This document shows, piece after piece, positions 5,921 through 38,957 of a stretch of 42,296 nt of DNA; positions within the stretch are counted from its first letter, which is position 1; every line of letters begins with the position of its first letter. Source of the stretch: a bacterium (GTDB taxonomy: Bacteria; Verrucomicrobiota; Verrucomicrobiia; Verrucomicrobiales; Akkermansiaceae); contig JAAEZT010000029.1 in the NCBI GenBank assembly GCA_018222765.1, positions 1 through 42,296 on the forward strand, in the 5' to 3' direction. Both the position numbers and the translations under genes were made by a program. Under the pieces are notes generated by a model. It was not told where the DNA came from. It saw only the letters and a list, made by a program, of their open reading frames with translations, and made no database searches.

Positions 5921-8410
5921 ATGCTTCGTCACTTCCTCCTTGGAGTTCTCTTACTCAGCTCCCAATTGGCAGCCCAAGTCCCCGCACCTCGCGAAACCAC
6001 TCCCGGCGAAGGGACCATGCCCATCGACTACCGCACCGCAATCGTGACCCCCGACTCCCTTGCACAGGAAGCTCAAATCCTCAGCTCTTCTCTGGGGAAA
6101 CTCACCGGCTTGCAACACCGTCTTCTCGAACCCTGGCAAGGTCGCCAGGTCCCGCAAAAAATCATCCTTGAAATTGACGAGTCCCTGCCGGCAAGTGCCT
6201 ATACCCTCACCATTAATCCAAAAGTCGCGGTCATTTGCGGAAGAGACGGAGAAGGCATTCTTAACGGAATTCAAACATTTTCCCAGCTCCTCCCCATCGA
6301 GGCCCAACCGCAACAATCGTCAAAAATTCCCTGCCTCACAATCAAAGACTCCCCGGTAGCAAAACGTCGCATTCTCTTCATCGACACCGCCCGACACCTC
6401 TTCCCGGTCAAGACCTTGAAGTCACTTCTCAGCTGGATGAGCTACCACAAACTCAACGAACTCCACCTTCATCTCAACGACGACCAGGGCTGGCGGCTTG
6501 AGAGTAAAAAATTCCCGAAGCTGACCGGAATCGGCTCTCTCCGTAATTCGACGCCACCATACACCGACCATCCTGACGACGAAAACTCGGAGGAATACGG
6601 AGGATATTATTCCCAGGAAAACATCAAAGAACTCCTGTCGCACGCCGCGAAATTTCATATCAAGGTCATCCCCGGATTTTCCCTCCCCACCCATGCCTCC
6701 GCAATCCTTGCCGCTTATCCCGAATTGGGGAATAAGGACCTGCCAGACTACAATCCAGAAGTGCAGTGTACCTGGGGAACATTCCCCGATACCCTGGCTC
6801 CCTCCCCGGAAACATTCGCCTTCCTCGGTACGCTATTTGCCGAAGTTGCTACTCTCTTTTCTGATAAGGAAATCAGAATTCACGCCCCTGACGTTCCCTG
6901 GATCGAATGGCAAAATTCTCCGCGAGCGCAAACCTACCTCAAAGCCAACAAACTTGCCTCGCCCGCAGCCTTGCAAGGCCACTTCCTGACAAAAATCGAC
7001 GCCATCCTAGCAACCCATAAACGCAAGCGATTTGATCCCGCCAGCGTCCCCTCGATTGACCTCTCGACTTACCAACGCCCCCCAGAACTCGAGCTCGCCG
7101 AAGACCCCACCCGCGAGGCCGCCACCCCCATGATCTCCATCTCAAAGGTCTATCAATTTCAAAAATCACCCGCGATGCAAGCCACCCTGTGGTCTCCCTT
7201 GGTTCACGACGAAGAGAAGCTCATCTACCAACTCTTCCCCCGCCTCGCCGCGTTCGCCGAAGCCGCCTGGTCGGCGCCCTCAACCGACAAGTTCGAACAA
7301 TTCCATACCCGAATGCTTCCCATTCTCAACTTCTACCAAAATACCAATCTCGAGGTCGCCGATATCTACCTGCCCCCGAAAAGAGGCGCCCTTCAGGGAA
7401 CCAAGGTAACCACCGACATGAAACACGCCGGAGCTCGCTGGCCGGAGCTCGCCTTTGATGGCGACCTCGATAGCTACTTCCAATCTCACGGAGGAGTCAG
7501 TAAAGGCAACCACCTGACTTTCGAATTCCCCTTTCCAGTCGAAGGAAAAATTACCTTCCCAACCGGAGGCGAAGAACAAGGTGTCCTGAAAAATGGCATT
7601 TTGGAATCTTCCATCGACGGAATAAAATGGAGCGCCCCGGTGACTCTTGCAAATGGAGTTGCTGCCATCACTCTTCCCGAGGGGTCAAAATTTCTTCGCC
7701 TCAAAGTCACCGCTGCTCAGGAGAAACCTATACTCGTCAACGAGCTTTCCCTTACAGAAAAACTCCTTCCCCCGGTCGTCCAAGATGTCCGATTCACCGA
7801 GTTCAGCCAAGTCGATGACAAGGGCCTTCCTTTCAGAGCCCAACTCACCTTCGAAGCCAACTTCGCCGATCATCCGGAACTCCGCCAGCAGATCAAAGCA
7901 ATGAGACAACGCTTCTTTTCCTCAGGCCCACGGATTATGGAAGTCGCGGGATTGATTGGACAGAAGGATTCCGTCATATTCAAAATCCGCCTTGGAAAGA
8001 AAACAAAGACACGCGAGGGAATCCTAACAATCAATCCGGATGAGCTCCGAAACCTCTCGGCACCTGATGCAGAAGATTTGCTGCTCAAACATCTCATCAC
8101 CCACTTTCAGGGTTTCTCCAGCGACACTCCAAATTGGTTCGCCACTGGAATAGTTGACTACCTCCGAAAGCGCGAGATTCCCGATTCCACCTGGGCCCGG
8201 AATTTTCCCCAGAATCCAGCCCGATCCAAAGCACTCTCCGGACACGCGGAGAGTGCCGCGTTTCTGAGCTGGCTCGTTTCCCAACACACTGAAATCCTCC
8301 TCCAAAATGCCTGCCGATCCTTCCGTAAGGGAATTAACAATCCCCTCATTTGGAGAGGTTCGGCCAACAACAAAACTCTGGAAGAACTGGTCAAAGAATA
8401 CCAAAACTGA
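5921..8410 (+). CDS. Secreted GH20-like protein with replaced catalytic residues, discoidin-like and degenerate BSP-like domains
   Basis: An 829-aa protein with a signal peptide (1-19), a GH20 N-terminal domain (about 30-140), a GH20 barrel (about 145-470), an F5/8 type C (discoidin)-like domain (about 490-615) and a C-terminal domain resembling the basic secretory protein peptidase family (about 620-829). The barrel aligns without gaps to beta-N-acetylhexosaminidases (HLNDDQGW at 184-191; FPRLAAFAEAAW at 439-450). However, the catalytic HIGGDEV segment reads RIHAPDV (319-325), so Asp becomes Pro323 and Glu becomes Asp324. The EIDMPGH segment reads GFSLPTH (252-258), and the substrate-binding WTE reads WSP (424-426). 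In the C-terminal domain the zinc motif HExxH reads HLITH (724-728), and the WLxEGIADY segment reads WFATGIVDY. I infer a glycan-binding pseudoenzyme rather than a hexosaminidase. Confidence 0.85.
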   Translation: MLRHFLLGVLLLSSQLAAQVPAPRETTPGEGTMPIDYRTAIVTPDSLAQEAQILSSSLGKLTGLQHRLLEPWQGRQVPQKIILEIDESLPASAYTLTINPKVAVICGRDGEGILNGIQTFSQLLPIEAQPQQSSKIPCLTIKDSPVAKRRILFIDTARHLFPVKTLKSLLSWMSYHKLNELHLHLNDDQGWRLESKKFPKLTGIGSLRNSTPPYTDHPDDENSEEYGGYYSQENIKELLSHAAKFHIKVIPGFSLPTHASAILAAYPELGNKDLPDYNPEVQCTWGTFPDTLAPSPETFAFLGTLFAEVATLFSDKEIRIHAPDVPWIEWQNSPRAQTYLKANKLASPAALQGHFLTKIDAILATHKRKRFDPASVPSIDLSTYQRPPELELAEDPTREAATPMISISKVYQFQKSPAMQATLWSPLVHDEEKLIYQLFPRLAAFAEAAWSAPSTDKFEQFHTRMLPILNFYQNTNLEVADIYLPPKRGALQGTKVTTDMKHAGARWPELAFDGDLDSYFQSHGGVSKGNHLTFEFPFPVEGKITFPTGGEEQGVLKNGILESSIDGIKWSAPVTLANGVAAITLPEGSKFLRLKVTAAQEKPILVNELSLTEKLLPPVVQDVRFTEFSQVDDKGLPFRAQLTFEANFADHPELRQQIKAMRQRFFSSGPRIMEVAGLIGQKDSVIFKIRLGKKTKTREGILTINPDELRNLSAPDAEDLLLKHLITHFQGFSSDTPNWFATGIVDYLRKREIPDSTWARNFPQNPARSKALSGHAESAAFLSWLVSQHTEILLQNACRSFRKGINNPLIWRGSANNKTLEELVKEYQN

Positions 8411-9346: not shown

Positions 9347-9999
9347 TGTCGCATTCCTTCAACCCCCGCGCCGTTCTCTTCGATTTCGACGGAGTGATTC
9401 TCGATACCGAGTGGCCCATTTACGAAACCTGGCGTGACCTTTTTCTAGAACACGGACAGGAACTCACCCTCGAGACCTACGTGCAATGCATCGGGTCGGA
9501 CTTCGACACTTGGTCGCCCGAAACTTACCTCGAATCTCTTACCGGGCTGAATTTCGATTGGGAAACAATTAACCCGGCCCGCAACGTCATCATCCGAGAA
9601 GAAGTCGGCAAACTCGATGCAGTTCCCGGAATTCGCGAGTCCTTGGCCCATTTCCAACAACAAGACATCCCCTGTGCCGTCGTCTCCAGCTCCGACCACA
9701 ATTGGGTCGACGGATGGCTCGAGCACCTCGGGCTCACTTCCTATTTCCAAACCATCGTCTGCAAAGGCGACGCCCCAAAAATAAAACCCGCTCCCGACCT
9801 TTACCTCGAGGCGGTCCGACAGATGAATCTTCCCGCCTCAGATTGTCTCGTCATCGAAGACTCCCTCAACGGCATGAAATCCGCGCATCTCGCCGGGTGC
9901 CCGGTGGTCGCCATCCCAAATCGAATCACGGCTTGTATCAACTTTGACGAGGCCGAGTTCCAGTTTGCCACCATGACCGAATTTACTGCTGCGCTATGA
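9346..9999 (+). CDS. HAD-superfamily hydrolase, beta-phosphoglucomutase-like
   Basis: A 217-aa cytoplasmic haloacid dehalogenase-like phosphatase or phosphomutase. Motif I is DFDGVILDTE near residues 13-22 (nucleophile Asp and general acid Asp), motif II is VSSSD, motif III is the Lys of KPAPDLYLEA, and motif IV is VIEDSLNGMKSA. The cap domain lies between motifs I and II, as in the phosphoglucomutase and phosphatase subgroup. It overlaps moaC by one base and apbE by four bases (ATGA), which indicates one transcript. The substrate is not predictable; small sugar phosphates are usual for this subgroup. Confidence 0.9.
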   Translation: MSHSFNPRAVLFDFDGVILDTEWPIYETWRDLFLEHGQELTLETYVQCIGSDFDTWSPETYLESLTGLNFDWETINPARNVIIREEVGKLDAVPGIRESLAHFQQQDIPCAVVSSSDHNWVDGWLEHLGLTSYFQTIVCKGDAPKIKPAPDLYLEAVRQMNLPASDCLVIEDSLNGMKSAHLAGCPVVAIPNRITACINFDEAEFQFATMTEFTAAL

Positions 10000-10985
10000 A
10001 GTGGATCGCTCTTGCCTGCCTCATCTTTCTGACCAGCTGCGGAGAAAAAGAGGAAGAAGAAGCCTCCGTTCCGCGTCGCAAGGAAAGTCAACGTCCGTTG
10101 ATGGGAACCCTCTTCAGAGTTGTCATCTATGTCGACGATGATGAAGCCGGCCGCAAGGCCATGGACGAAGCCTTCGAGATTGCGGCAGACTTTGCAACAG
10201 CAGCCACTGACTACGAAGCCGACTCGGAACTCAACCTCTTCTGCAAATCCGCCGCCGGAGAACCAGTAAAGTTGAGCGAACATCTCTTCGGAGTTCTTGC
10301 TCTCGCCCACCAACTTGCGATCGATACCGAAGGAGTCTATGACCCTACTTTGGGGCCACTCACCCACCTCTGGCGCGAGTCAAAAAACTCAGGAATTCTC
10401 CCCGATGAAGAAATGCTCAAAGCCGCCAAACGTGTCAGCGGATACCAACATCTTTCCCTTAATCCCGACGATCAAACCGCCACTCTCGCTCTTAACGGAA
10501 TGCAACTCGATCTCGGCGGAATCGCCAAAGGCTACGCTGCGGATCTCATCTTTGAACATTTGAAAAACGCCGGATACCACCAAACTCTGGTCGCAGCTGC
10601 CGGGGACATTCGCCTCGGAGACGCCCCCCCGGACAAAGAAGGTTGGGGCATCGCCCTCCGCACGTTTCGCCTCACTCCTTCCGAGCCTATGTTCCTCAAA
10701 AACTGCGCCATTTCCACCTCGGGCGACCTCTACCAAAACGTCCAAATTGGAGAGAGCAAATACTCCCACCTCATCGACCCCAAAACCGGATTGGGAATGA
10801 CTTCACGCCGCGCTGCCTCCGTCATCGCCCCCTTCGCACAGCTCACTGACCCTCTTGCCACCGCGGCCTGTCTGATCGACGACCCGGCTCAACTCGCCAA
10901 CATCCATCCGGACCTTTCCATCCGCGTTCTTTACGAAGACCCAAACACTCAACCCATCGTCACGGGAGCCTTCTTGGCGAACTGA
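9996..10985 (+). CDS. apbE: FAD:protein FMN transferase ApbE, lipoprotein
   Basis: A 329-aa flavin transferase that links FMN to a Ser or Thr of target redox proteins outside the cytoplasmic membrane. The N-terminus is a lipoprotein signal with lipobox LTSC, so the enzyme should be anchored to a membrane after Cys15. Family segments include RPLMGTLFRVVIY, GVYDPTLGPL, LDLGGIAKGYAAD, the AAAGDIRLGD segment, and the C-terminal SHLIDPKTG and the metal-site region around DPLATAA. It overlaps the HAD gene by ATGA. No obvious flavinylation target (NqrB, NqrC or RnfG type, or an FMN-bind domain) is encoded in the window, so the partner lies elsewhere. Confidence 0.94.
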   Translation: MKWIALACLIFLTSCGEKEEEEASVPRRKESQRPLMGTLFRVVIYVDDDEAGRKAMDEAFEIAADFATAATDYEADSELNLFCKSAAGEPVKLSEHLFGVLALAHQLAIDTEGVYDPTLGPLTHLWRESKNSGILPDEEMLKAAKRVSGYQHLSLNPDDQTATLALNGMQLDLGGIAKGYAADLIFEHLKNAGYHQTLVAAAGDIRLGDAPPDKEGWGIALRTFRLTPSEPMFLKNCAISTSGDLYQNVQIGESKYSHLIDPKTGLGMTSRRAASVIAPFAQLTDPLATAACLIDDPAQLANIHPDLSIRVLYEDPNTQPIVTGAFLAN

Positions 10986-14413: not shown

Positions 14414-16639
14414 TTACTTTGTGGCTTGCTCGAGCGCTTCAAGTGCTTCCTCGGCACCGAAGAATTCAGGCATGATAATCAGTTTCTGATCGGGATCCGC
14501 CGGCACGATGATGTTCACGGGCAAATTAGACCGTCCATTTTCCCCGTAGCGTTCAAGATCAGCGTTAATGGCCGGGTCACCATGGGTATTGTCTGCCTTT
14601 ACGAGAAGAACATCGAGTTCCTCAAGACGCTCCAAAACTTTTTTGCTTGAGAACACACGGCCCTCATTTGCTTTACAGGTGAGTCACCAATCAGCGGTGT
14701 AATCGACCCAGACAATTCGTTTTTTGGTTCGAGAAAGCTCAATCACTCCGGGATACCATTCCTGCCAAGCGAGCCCGTCCTTAGGCTTTTTCGACACCGA
14801 ATAGGCCCAAGTCAATCCACCGAAAATCATCAGACCGGAGAGAGCATACCCCGTCACCATCCGTTTGGTTTTTGAGGTAATTGGAGTTCCCCAACGTCCG
14901 TAGATATAGGCCCCAAGCCCAATCAAGGTCAGAGCAAAGAGGAAGTAATTGAAGTGTTCCTCTCCCACGAGGGTAAGATAACTCTTGAGGAAAAAGACCA
15001 CCGTCGCAAAGACCAGGAAGGCCATGATTTGTTTGAAGCTCTCCATCCAGGCTCCCGGGCGGGGAAGCTTTTTGATCAATGCGGGGAAGAACGAGAGGAC
15101 GATGTAGGGGCTGGCAATACCAAGTGCAAAAACGGTGAAAACGGCAAAGGCAATTGGCTTGGGTTGCGAGAGCGCAAAGCCCATCACCGCTCCGAGAAAT
15201 GGTCCAGAACACGGCGTGGCAATGAGAGTAGTGAGCACTCCGGAAAAGAATGATCCTGAGTAACCTTTCTTACCCTGCAATTCACCACCAACCCCGGTGA
15301 GGCTCGTCCCAATTTCAAACAAACCAAAAAGGTTCAGGCCCATCACAAAAAGGAGAACAATAATTGCGCCGAGGAAAACCGGATTACTCAGCTGTTCTCC
15401 CCAGTTCAAATTGAGGGATATAATGACCGCAGACAAAATCCACATTGTCACCAAAAGACCCAGGCCAAATACCAGACCATGAATTTTGATCTTCTTTTCG
15501 TCTTCTCCGGCTTGAGCCACAAAGCCCATGACCTTCAGGCCAAGGACCGGAAATACACAGGGCATCAAATTTAGAAGCAGACCGCCGATGAAGACGAAGA
15601 AAAGAGAGGATCCAAAAGTCACTTTCTTTTCCTCAATTCCACCCGGCAGGACAATCTCAAGCTTGGCATCGACATCGTAAAGTTCCGCTCCCGCCGCGAT
15701 CTCTTCTTCCGTGGCTTTCACCGTTTCCAGATGAACTAACGGAGCCGGAGCTTTGTCCACTCCTGGAGGGTCGGCAGCATCAAGATTTGCCGAAAGCGGA
15801 ATCGACACATTCACCGCCGCTCTGCCGGTTTCCGTTTGGTAAGCTAACATTCCCGACATGGTTTCCAGGGTTGGTCCTTTATCGATGAAGAGATCTTCAT
15901 TTCCGAAATTGCGGTCAAAATACGCAATGATCATTTGCCCATCAACTTCGGCGTCCTGCAATGACTGGCTGTCCACTTGCTGGTCGGAAGAGAAGAAGTA
16001 GATCCCTTCTTCCTGAATCGAAATTCCGTCCGGAGCGATCGCAGTGAGAGAGAACGAGCCCTCTTCCTCAACAACTTCAAAAGTCCAGCCATCCGCAGGT
16101 TTTGCAATCGGAGGGTTTTCAAAAACCGCGGCACCAGCGGCATCAGGAACGGTCGTGTCCGCAGATTTGATTACGAGAGAAATTTCTCCGGATTCCTGAA
16201 CGCAGCTGCCTTCATCACAAATCTGCCAACCTGCCTTTCCGCTAATTGTGACATCTTTTCCGGGAGCCAGTTCTTTTGGAGCAGTAATCTCGTAGTAAAA
16301 AACAACTTCCCCTTCGTATCCATAGAGCACGGTATCAAGCCCAATTGCCTTCGTTTCGATCGCACGGGGAATAGTGAAAATCGTCTCACTCGCCGTGAAC
16401 CCATCGGGGAGCGCCCAATCAACCTTCATCGAAGTCCCAAGAATTCCGGGGTTTACGTAATAGGAATGCCAGTGATCGGGATGGTTGAGTTGCAGGGCAA
16501 TTTTGAAAGTCTCGCCCGGAGCAATCTCAGTGACTTCAGAGACCGCTTTGAAGGTGGACTTATCACCACCACCAAACTGCGCATTGGCCAGAGATGAGAA
16601 GAAAAAGGTGAGGAGGAGAATCAGTGATCGTTGCATCAT
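14414..16639 (-). CDS. dsbD: DsbD-type thiol:disulfide reductase, probable selenoprotein with in-frame UGA
   Basis: A 741-aa membrane reductase if the TGA at 14684-14686 is read as selenocysteine. A signal peptide (1-20) is followed by a periplasmic DsbD-alpha-like domain with a Cys pair (C141, C146). Next comes the DsbD-beta membrane domain with the electron-shuttling Cys residues in MPCVFP (C361) and TPCSGP (C477), then a thioredoxin-like domain. In that domain the usual DYTADWCxTCK reads DYTADW-UGA-LTCK: the stop stands exactly for the first catalytic Cys, and the resolving Cys655 is kept. The frame is open for another 89 codons after the TGA, and the protein continues as normal thioredoxin-fold sequence (VLLVKADNTHGDP, then NLPVNIIVP). 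Stopping at TGA would give 651 aa without the active site. Alternative: a point-mutated pseudogene or sequencing error. Starts at 16639 and 16636 are both possible. Confidence 0.85.
14645..14671 (-). promoter_or_regulatory. Candidate SECIS-like hairpin after the UGA codon
   Basis: In the mRNA, counting the U of UGA as 1, bases 21-27 can pair with 33-39 (UGAG with CUCA, two G-U pairs, one C-G pair) around the apical loop CGUGU. A G-C/C-G lower stem (16-17 with 41-42) is separated by a purine bulge. Distance from the UGA and a GU in the loop resemble bacterial SECIS elements, but the stem is short and I found it by eye. Confidence 0.35.
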
Positions 16640-16819: not shown

Positions 16820-17785
16820 ATGAGAATTTTGACCGGCCTGCAACCAAGCGGACGTCTTCACGTGGGAAATTACTTTGGCGCGATCAAACCAGCCATCGAT
16901 GCCCAGGGCGAAGGCGACGGTTATTACTTCATCGCGGACTATCACGCGATGACGACGACCCACAATCCCGCCGAGCTCCGCGAAAATGTCCTCGGCGTGG
17001 CTATCGATTTCCTCGCCTGCGGTTTCGACCCGTCGAAAGGCGTCTTTTTTAAGCAAAGCGCGGTTCCTGAGGTCAACGAACTGGCTTGGATTCTCTCGAC
17101 CGTTTGTCCCATGGGACTTCTCGAACGTTGCCACTCTTATAAGGACAAAATAGCCAAGGGTATCTCGGCCAATCACGCGCTTTTCGCTTATCCCGCGCTC
17201 ATGGCGGCGGACATTTTGCTCTACGATTCCAACATCGTACCCGTCGGTGACGACCAAAAACAACACCTTGAGGTGACCCGCGATCTCGTCGGCAAGATCA
17301 ACGACCAATACGGCGAAGGCACTCTCGTCATGCCGAAGGCCCGCATTCGCGAAGGCGTTGCCAAGGTCCCCGGACTCGATGGCGAGAAGATGAGCAAGAG
17401 CTACAATAACACACTCCCGATCTTCGGCGACGAAAAGCCCAACAAGAAACTCATCATGCGAATTCAGACCGATTCCGCCGCCGTGGAAGATCCCAAGCCC
17501 ACGGAAAATTCCGTCATTCTGGCACTCTACCAACTCTTCGCCGGCGAATCAGAATACCAACAAATGATCTCCGACTACGAGAATGGCGGATGTGGATACG
17601 GTGACTTTAAAAAGCGTCTGGCAGAAGCTTATTGGGATTACTTTGCTCCCATGCGCGCCAGACGCGAAGAGCTCATCGCCAATCCCGACGAAGTAGATTC
17701 CGTCCTCGCTGCCGGTGCCGAGAAAGCACGGGAAGAAGCCAGCAAGGTCATCGATCGCGTTCGCAGAGCAGTGGGCTTGATATAA
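16820..17785 (+). CDS. trpS: Tryptophanyl-tRNA synthetase
   Basis: A 321-aa class I aminoacyl-tRNA synthetase that charges tRNA-Trp. The HIGH-type motif is LHVGN at 13-17, the KMSKS motif is exactly KMSKS at 190-194, and the segment MAADILLYDSNIVPVGDDQ (about 128-146) is characteristic of TrpRS. The length is a little under the usual 325-340. The start ATG at 16820 precedes MRILTGLQPSG, the conserved N-terminus. The gene is divergent from the DsbD gene, with 180 bases between them. That gap holds two inverted repeats (16724-16730 with 16750-16756, and 16785-16790 with 16796-16801); I cannot tell whether they are regulatory. No Shine-Dalgarno motif is present. Confidence 0.97.
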   Translation: MRILTGLQPSGRLHVGNYFGAIKPAIDAQGEGDGYYFIADYHAMTTTHNPAELRENVLGVAIDFLACGFDPSKGVFFKQSAVPEVNELAWILSTVCPMGLLERCHSYKDKIAKGISANHALFAYPALMAADILLYDSNIVPVGDDQKQHLEVTRDLVGKINDQYGEGTLVMPKARIREGVAKVPGLDGEKMSKSYNNTLPIFGDEKPNKKLIMRIQTDSAAVEDPKPTENSVILALYQLFAGESEYQQMISDYENGGCGYGDFKKRLAEAYWDYFAPMRARREELIANPDEVDSVLAAGAEKAREEASKVIDRVRRAVGLI

Positions 17786-37239: not shown

Positions 37240-38085
37240 ATGACTGAACATGAATTGATCGGGTATGTTTTCATGGGAACGCTTGGGGCCTTCTTTTTAT
37301 TAGGCCTACCTGCGTATTATTTTCTGCGGAAAAATCGAACCCTTGCCTCTGGTCCGCCGGTTTTGGAGAAAGTGGCGACTTGGCCGCTTCAACCGCTCGA
37401 TTTGGTTGTTGCCAGCGGGTATATTGCCTTTTTCGTTGCGGGTTGGAAATTGTCCGGTTCGGTGGATCAAAAGGAGACGTTATCGAAGGCGAATGCCTGG
37501 ATGATCGCGGGGAATTCCCTCGTTATGCTCATGTTTGCGGCGATGGTTCCGCTGGTGATGTTTTGGCGGATTCGTCCGGAAAAGTTTTTTGGACTGAACT
37601 GGCCCAAGTGGCGGTGGATTTTTCTGATCGTGCCTTGTTTTTTGGTGGGGGTGATGGTGATCGCTACCATCATTATGACTATGGGCTGGGAGAAGTTTGT
37701 GGAGGGAAATTTTGGCGGTGATGTGCAGGCGATGGTGCAAATGATCAAGGAGACCCAGGACGTAGCCTTGATGGCGGCGATGATTTCCGCTGCTGTAATC
37801 GGAGCTCCGATTGCCGAGGAGATTATTTTCCGCGGTTACCTTTATCCGGTGGCTAAAAAATACACCAGCACCTGGTTTGCCGCTTTGTTTACCGGAGTAC
37901 TTTTTGGGGTGGTGCACATGAACCTTCTTGGTTTGCCCATTCTCGCCTTGATGGGAGTAGCTCTGGCCGTTCTCTATGAACGAACTGGTTCCTTGTGGGC
38001 TCCAATATTATGTCACATGGCCTTTAATGGGATGCAGATGTTCTTCATGTTGTTTTTGAAATACTTCCCAGTTCCAGCGTCATGA
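37240..38085 (+). CDS. CPBP-family intramembrane glutamic protease
   Basis: A 281-aa multi-pass membrane protein of the CPBP/CAAX-protease group (Rce1-like). Hydrophobic segments appear at about 8-28, 55-72, 88-108, 126-148, 176-200, 212-232 and 234-268. Catalytic motifs are all present: EEIIFRG (Glu193, Glu194, Arg198), the FGVVHMN helix (His226), and the CHMAFN helix (His259, Asn263). Bacterial members cleave within membranes or provide self-immunity to bacteriocins; the substrate here is unknown. It has a rare clear Shine-Dalgarno site and overlaps thiL by ATGA, so the two are co-translated. Confidence 0.9.
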   Translation: MTEHELIGYVFMGTLGAFFLLGLPAYYFLRKNRTLASGPPVLEKVATWPLQPLDLVVASGYIAFFVAGWKLSGSVDQKETLSKANAWMIAGNSLVMLMFAAMVPLVMFWRIRPEKFFGLNWPKWRWIFLIVPCFLVGVMVIATIIMTMGWEKFVEGNFGGDVQAMVQMIKETQDVALMAAMISAAVIGAPIAEEIIFRGYLYPVAKKYTSTWFAALFTGVLFGVVHMNLLGLPILALMGVALAVLYERTGSLWAPILCHMAFNGMQMFFMLFLKYFPVPAS

Positions 38086-38957
38086 AAACGATTGGAGAAT
38101 TGGGAGAGGATGGATTGATCGCGCAATTGTGTGAAGGCCTTCCGTCGACCGAGAGAGTGGTCGTTGGTCCGGGGGATGATTGTGCGGTGGTTGAGGTGGG
38201 GGACAAATGGGTTCTCTTGAAAACCGATGCGGTGGTGGAGGGCGTTCATTACTTGTCAGGCGAAAATTCCAAGCGAGTCGGCTGGAAAGCAGTGGCGAGA
38301 GTCTTGAGTGATTTTGCCGCGATGGGAGGGGAGCCCGGTGAACTTTTGGTGACGGTAGCGGTCTCGCGAGAGCTCGAAGTGCGTTGGCTCACGGAACTTT
38401 ATGAAGGAATGAAATCCTGTCTGGAACAATTCGGGGGAGTGATTGTCGGTGGCGAAACGAGTTCGTTGCCAGTGGGTTCTCCGACCGTGATTTCTATCGC
38501 GGGGCGGGGGAGGGTTTCGCGGAAGCGATTGGTGACACGGTCCGGTGGCAAGGCGGGAGACGGAATTTTTGTCACCGGGGTGTTGGGTGGATCGATCAAT
38601 GGAAAGCACTTGGATTTTCATCCCCGCCTTCGTGAAGCGACATGGTTGACCGAAAATTTTTCCCTCACCGCGATGATGGATTTGTCAGATGGTCTGGCGA
38701 AAGATCTTCCTCGATTGGCGAAAGCCAGTGGCTGTGGATTTTCTATCGAGAAAGAATCTGTTCCTTGCTCGGAGGACGCGTCACTTCAGGGAGCGCTCGG
38801 AGATGGGGAAGATTATGAGCTCCTCTTCACCTGTGATCAGGGGAGTAAATTACCGGAAAAATGGGGCGAGTGTTTTCCTAGTTTGCGATTGACCAAGATT
38901 GGTGAATTGACCGCAGAACAGGAAGATTCGTTGGTGGGCGGTTGGGATCATTTTTGA
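38082..38957 (+). CDS. thiL: Thiamine-monophosphate kinase ThiL
   Basis: A 291-aa enzyme that phosphorylates thiamine monophosphate to the active cofactor thiamine diphosphate. Family segments are GPGDDCAVV near the N-terminus, LKTDAVVEGVHY, the VLSDFAAMGGEP helix, GGETSSLP, VTGVLGGS and the MDLSDGLAKDL motif in the C-terminal half, with GEDYELLF after it. It overlaps the CPBP gene start-stop as ATGA. No other thi gene is in the window, and no TPP riboswitch is visible before the globin gene that heads the run. Confidence 0.95.
   Translation: MKTIGELGEDGLIAQLCEGLPSTERVVVGPGDDCAVVEVGDKWVLLKTDAVVEGVHYLSGENSKRVGWKAVARVLSDFAAMGGEPGELLVTVAVSRELEVRWLTELYEGMKSCLEQFGGVIVGGETSSLPVGSPTVISIAGRGRVSRKRLVTRSGGKAGDGIFVTGVLGGSINGKHLDFHPRLREATWLTENFSLTAMMDLSDGLAKDLPRLAKASGCGFSIEKESVPCSEDASLQGALGDGEDYELLFTCDQGSKLPEKWGECFPSLRLTKIGELTAEQEDSLVGGWDHF

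Follow-up and report, generated by a model that had tools for sequence, protein, structure and literature searches.

The gamma domain of Escherichia coli DsbD bears a CxxC motif formed by Cys461 and Cys464, and it receives electrons from the membrane domain and hands them on to the alpha domain (PMC3961690, available text). In the same text the pKa of Cys461 is 10.6, a value that Asp455 and Glu468 raise and that guards it against side reactions, and for a cDsbD variant with a lower nucleophile pKa the authors argue that re-oxidation becomes easier (PMC3961690). Selenocysteine (Sec) in a UxxC domain of the "thiol:disulfide interchange" kind is already published, as the accessible parts of three sources show. 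A 2026 review (PMC13188914) counts 119 selenoprotein families or subfamilies, including "Thiol:disulfide interchange protein" (PF13098, UxxC) and TsoB (UxxxxU), and its available main text mentions DsbD once only, in the name of TsoB; the GOS survey (PMC2398784) has 22 UxxC sequences under "Trx-like 2 (Thiol disulfide interchange protein)", cd02953; and PMC1794560 describes a "Thiol:disulfide interchange protein" selenoprotein family in Geobacter and Syntrophus.

Here we compare these systems with a gene in a 42,296-nucleotide stretch of DNA (the window, at its full length) from an Akkermansiaceae-like Verrucomicrobiales bacterium, which is probably marine, as inferred from the names of its relatives' MAGs. 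On sequence comparison, codon 652 of this gene, a TGA, almost certainly encodes Sec, and the gene would code for DsbD in selenoprotein form. The literature searched (mostly papers outside subscription) yielded no full-length DsbD selenoprotein with all three domains from this lineage, and neither DsbD nor Verrucomicrobia was found in the available portions of PMC9312934, PMC12013277 and PMC1088965. The full-length DsbD selenoprotein form and its lineage may be new.

Frame and domain layout of the dsbD gene

On the minus strand, 742 codons run from ATG to TAA at 14414-16639, and the putative selenoprotein read from them, on the evidence of the frame and its Pfam matches, has 741 residues with Sec at position 652. 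The sole internal stop is the TGA of codon 652 (14684-14686), in the context IVWVDYTADW-UGA-LTCKANEGRVFS, after which 89 sense codons precede the TAA. The start at ATG 16639 was picked for its signal-peptide-like N-terminus (a probable signal peptide, MMQRSLILLLTFFFSSLANA, at 16580-16639, minus strand, judged by eye); the frame continues open upstream of this ATG, with the mechanical ORF beginning at 17533, and the plus strand of 14414-16639 contains many stops. Three Pfam profiles match above their cut-offs on the minus strand, namely DsbD_N at residues 39-155 (the N-terminal alpha domain, 16175-16525), DsbD_TM at 347-552 (the membrane or beta domain, 14984-15601) and Thioredoxin_7 at 624-712 (the C-terminal gamma domain, 14504-14770, also seen in the E. 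coli alignment and in a structure model). The first-pass annotation had described, without naming a strand, a DsbD-type reductase whose 742-codon frame is broken by a lone TGA and stays intact for 89 codons beyond it; all of this is borne out, with the Thioredoxin_7 match crossing the TGA. It was also right that TGA is an ordinary stop here, since TGA ends the GH20 gene at 5921-8410 (the only one of its four examples that the search named) and the ApbE gene at 9996-10985; because these other window genes end in TGA, the codon is not generally reassigned. Its warning that automatic annotation would truncate the gene holds as well: the plain ORF stops at codon 651, and ordinary gene calling would shorten DsbD at the UGA.

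The sequence spanning the TGA aligns with the E. coli DsbD gamma domain; the TGA takes the place of the first CxxC Cys (the position of E. coli Cys461, as homologue columns also indicate) and a TGT that of the second (the resolving Cys655 of UxxC, 14675-14677, minus strand), which agrees with the earlier placement of the TGA at the first Cys of a thioredoxin CxxC whose second Cys is kept. A model of the gamma domain, built with C for U from a 25-row alignment, has a mean pLDDT of 90.7, and its eight best PDB matches are DsbD gamma domains, with that of E. coli at the top. The likeness to E. coli DsbD (gamma PDB 2FWF and 4IP1) extends to the alpha-beta-gamma order, the alpha and beta Cys pairs, the gamma thioredoxin fold, and an Asp six residues before and a Glu seven residues after the nucleophile (residue roles as given in the available text of PMC3961690). 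The two differ in the nucleophile, which is Cys461 there and would be Sec here, and identity in the fold match is 22-24%.

The beta Cys pair comprises Cys361 (15557-15559) and Cys477 (15209-15211), from motif reading, and the alpha pair Cys141 (16217-16219) and Cys146 (16202-16204), from aligned stretches, all on the minus strand. Among the homologues described below, the beta motifs occur in 43 of the 44 Sec rows (the remaining row is cut), the alpha pair with a spacing of 3 to 5 residues occurs in all 85 rows that reach that region (of 88), and the second gamma Cys is present in 88/88 rows (44/44 Sec and 44/44 Cys). Because the beta motifs and the alpha pair are kept, one of six redox residues would be Sec. 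Loss of the alpha pair had been considered, as a CxxxxC pattern was met in only 21 of the 44 Sec rows, and it was rejected on the aligned stretches, which show the pair at the 3 to 5 spacing in 85/85.

The window protein is classed here as a remote DsbD on its Pfam architecture and fold; it lies outside the NCBIfam NF001419 subfamily, whose DsbD model it matches at 117.6 bits, under the 330-bit cut-off. Its best NCBIfam match is TsoB (NF045694, rhodanese/DsbD fusion-like), which aligns with the beta-gamma part at 167.6 bits, far under the 805-bit cut-off. Membership of TsoB was rejected, since this cut-off is missed, the window protein has no rhodanese domain (E<=0.001), and it has one Sec in UxxC whereas TsoB, as described in the accessible review text, has two in UxxxxU. 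It shares a UxxC thioredoxin-like domain with the Sec "Thiol:disulfide interchange protein" (PF13098; GOS "Trx-like 2", cd02953); however, that family is described, in the source portions available and by description only, without a membrane or alpha domain, a full architecture, or Verrucomicrobiota. We presume that the cd02953 entry corresponds to the DsbD gamma domain.

The DsbD_TM profile has a single match in the whole genome, and thus the search with this profile found no CcdA-like or Cys-DsbD backup. The 10 neighbouring window frames that were scanned, among them an FtsX-type permease, a W/Y-type tRNA synthetase, a dioxygenase, an ABC ATPase, TsaE and ApbE, do not suggest a redox operon.

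Codon at the catalytic column in relatives

The catalytic column was read in 88 rows, window included, and it holds TGA in 44, TGC in 35, TGT in 9 and any other codon in none. The 44 TGA rows represent 44 genomes, the window's own among them, and the 44:44 balance is not a frequency, because rows were fetched partly for a reported TGA. Duplicates left out of the 88 are L044-L052 (named records of genomes already included, or cut), L053 and L089. In the sample of relatives, 94 of 97 genomes have a match (G011 and G015 are among those without one, and the match in G004 stops short of the site), and within the genus all 24 matches that reach the site carry one TGA, own genome counted. The order sample has matches in 273 of 288 genomes, with TGA in at least 31; the phylum sample has them in 100 of 240, with TGA in the own genome only and 13 of the 100 matches ending before the site. 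A plasmid collection gave 91 records matching the gamma domain, all below 60% identity. Those relatives that have names are MAGs filed as Akkermansiaceae, Verrucomicrobiaceae, Verrucomicrobiales or Verrucomicrobiia.

These rows bear directly on two other explanations of the TGA. An error of sequencing or assembly at the one base has a vanishingly small probability, as the same TGA is present in two other assemblies of close relatives (L016 and L015, whose DNA is identical to that of the named records L044 and L045, respectively) at 96-97% identity, and it recurs across genera. The TGA might otherwise be a nonsense mutation that truncates DsbD by its last 90 codons and leaves the rest as a decaying pseudogene, and it is true that TGA is a genuine stop in this genome and that the bulk of the protein lies upstream. 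However, the TGA is shared by 44 genomes, the farthest at about 32-34% protein identity, and it always stands at the catalytic Cys column. The TGA is followed by 85-98 codons in 43 of the 44 Sec rows (the contig of the remaining row is cut), and the gamma fold is confidently predicted across it. Moreover, dN is below dS past the TGA in 10 pairs and low against it in most of them (0.0098/0.1234 for L014-L016; 0.0049/0.3885 for L020-L024), two pairs being weak (L026-L028, with dN 0.0149 and dS 0.0323, and L018-L021, where dS is saturated). By these sequence comparisons the codons downstream of the TGA are under purifying selection, and a nonsense mutation is extremely unlikely.

Sec machinery and the SECIS-like hairpin

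The genome assembly, 4.33 Mb on 87 contigs and 97.76% complete, contains SelA (411 bits), a SelB wing domain within a 655-aa frame (62.6 bits), SelD (374 bits) and a tRNA-Sec whose anticodon is TCA (54 bits, cut-off 47; found by ARAGORN also). Among 14 control genomes, the cut-offs are exceeded by SelA in 2, tRNA-Sec in 5, SelB in 1 and SelD in 2; weak matches were left uncounted because the tRNA-Sec and SelD models match at E <= 0.001 in 14/14 controls. The selD gene has one internal in-frame TGA (L011:1531-1533, G000:C60) in the context SCGG-UGA-ASK, followed by a G-containing hairpin read by eye, so that SelD looks like a second selenoprotein of this genome. A weak match to the SelD model is also seen in the window at 38151-38597 on the plus strand (49.5 bits, where the cut-off is 125), inside the frame 38082-38957 that had earlier been called thiL; it is probably a related fold and no second SelD.

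A bacterial SECIS is a hairpin shortly 3' of the UGA with a G in a small apical loop (PMC1088965, available text), and by comparison this trait is found at the locus. The SECIS-like hairpin UGAGGGC-CGUGU-GUUCUCA lies at 14648-14666 on the minus strand, with its apical loop 24 nt past the UGA. The comparison covers 27 closer sequences, 23 of them distinct, with three from outside the genus. In these, a spacer of 17 nt separates the UGA from a stem that reaches 7 bp, and most have CGUGU as the loop. In this set 93.8% of the hairpin cells are paired, against 24-70% once the partner is slid, and two pairs show compensatory changes (U-A/C-G and C-G/G-C). The covariation score is 0.241 against 0.141 in shuffles (0/500 reach it) and at most 0.072 when slid; two of the five covariation measures do not exceed the shuffles, namely double-change pairs (2 vs 1.3; 171/500) and further pair types (4 vs 4.3; 478/500). 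Synonymous sites point the same way as the pairing: in 23 own-genus rows the hairpin codons are GTG in 22/22, TTC in 23/23, GAG in 23/23 and CGT in 21/23, whereas at conserved residues elsewhere in the gene the top codon reaches 0.9 in 0/82 four-fold, 6/69 two-fold and 1/51 six-fold columns. The hairpin Ser codon varies (TCA 13, TCG 9, TCT 1), its last base sitting in the U-A/C-G pair. The GAG codon of residue 659 lies within the hairpin stem.

Under a mechanical rule (a stem of 4 bp or more, and a G at loop base 1 or 2), set after the own-genus hairpin had been seen, the best hairpin falls 22-25 nt past the UGA in 39/44 Sec rows (21/24 from the own genus and 18/20 others) and in 3/44 Cys rows. 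Kinship among the rows inflates these counts and those on pairing and codon use above. Five of the 44 Sec rows fail the stem rule (L031, L033, L034, L056 and L105), and distant Sec rows have different stem sequences at the same position, with loops such as GGUCA (L103) and CGGUCGC (L057). Taken singly, the window hairpin is no more stable in folding energy than shuffled sequences (z -0.19 to -0.30), and ten other Sec rows are likewise unremarkable (z +0.82 to -1.53); because single-sequence z-scores give no support, the case for the hairpin rests on comparison. Rfam gave no match above gathering scores within the window, and hence no ready bacterial SECIS model.

The machinery and the hairpin also bear on how the UGA would be read. 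UGA-reading Cys tRNAs exist, and insertion of Cys would work at a column where homologues have Cys; the codon might then be read as Cys by a Sec-like tRNA, or as Trp or by a near-cognate tRNA through read-through. Against this stand the presence of tRNA-Sec, SelA, SelB and a SelD with its own in-frame TGA, the conservation of the hairpin in the manner of a SECIS, and the restriction of the column to TGA, TGC and TGT in 88 rows, and we regard such decoding as very unlikely. Split redox domains are common, and another explanation is therefore two genes, with an alpha-beta DsbD stopping at the UGA and re-initiation yielding the gamma domain as a protein of its own. But the catalytic motif straddles the UGA and its nucleophile would be lost; in the samples of relatives and of the order, the matched TGA-bearing stretches contain no internal stop besides the TGA; and the position of the hairpin suits use as a SECIS. 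The chance of two genes is accordingly extremely slim. Under the favored reading of the UGA as Sec, SelB carrying Sec-tRNA(UCA) would bind the hairpin and decode the UGA, giving a gamma domain with UxxC.

The first-pass proposal of a probable selenoprotein is thus supported at the sequence level by the Sec machinery, the homologue column, the downstream constraint and the SECIS-like hairpin. It had turned on SelA, SelB, SelD and the tRNA-Sec(UCA), all of which are in the genome, and on Cys or Sec homologues at the same column, of which both occur (44 TGA and 44 TGC or TGT in 88 rows); the decay past the TGA that would have spoken against it is absent from the sister genomes, which are conserved there.

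Sec/Cys exchanges and residue +7

We compared the presence of SelB with that of a TGA-bearing DsbD in 93 genomes with a usable DsbD match (the 97 relatives minus three without a match and G004). SelB is found in 31 of the 32 genomes with the TGA and in 21 of the 61 without it (P = 1.5e-9, genomes treated as independent). Outside the own genus, it is present in 7 and absent from 1 of the genomes with a TGA-bearing DsbD, compared with 21 and 40 of those without (P = 0.006, again with genomes treated as independent). In the exception, G088 (92% complete; row L057), the Sec column holds a TGA and a 5-bp hairpin follows, yet the SelB wing has no match; this may mean that the assembly is incomplete or that Sec is being lost in that lineage.

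A quick maximum-likelihood tree was built from 89 rows with C entered at the Sec/Cys site throughout; on it the Sec and Cys states require 7 changes counted without direction, at least 5 of them forced by strong branches. Residue +7 (659) is Glu in 42/44 Sec rows and Lys in 38/44 Cys rows, and it aligns with E. coli Glu468; residue -6, corresponding to Asp455 in E. coli, is Asp in 88/88 rows. The link of Glu with Sec and Lys with Cys holds, on average, in 4.5 of 5 independent pairs, and it is a lead only, because a sign test on 5 pairs cannot reach 0.05. The Glu/Lys swap may reflect tuning of the active site, or it may be a by-product of the hairpin.

If the protein works as E. coli DsbD does, cytoplasmic thioredoxin would supply electrons to the Cys pair of the beta domain, from which they would move on to the Sec/Cys pair of the gamma domain, next to the alpha Cys pair and finally to periplasmic oxidoreductases. 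The window DsbD would keep both acids (Asp at -6 and Glu at +7) while the thiol becomes a selenol. Our guess is that Sec would make the gamma step quicker, or more readily recovered after oxidation; this benefit is open to doubt, because a lower pKa is argued, in the available text, to favor re-oxidation of E. coli cDsbD (PMC3961690). If the gene is indeed a selenoprotein, selenium would sit in an enzyme that, as in E. coli, would feed reducing power to the periplasm for disulfide isomerisation and cytochrome c maturation, and since the genome has a sole DsbD_TM match, the periplasm would need a supply of selenium for reduction along this path. A broader proposal is that these genes form an undescribed clade of full-length DsbD selenoproteins, which would make the sole transmembrane relay of this type for electrons bound for the periplasm run via selenium, with repeated Sec/Cys switches and a +7 Glu/Lys swap that retunes the pKa; we offer this tentatively, with doubt slightly outweighing confidence. 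Several Sec/Cys switches within one family, possibly linked with a change at +7, would provide a natural series on why Sec is paid for. Both states can also be found side by side, as G411 carries a Sec copy and a Cys copy of DsbD in one genome (L096 and L097).
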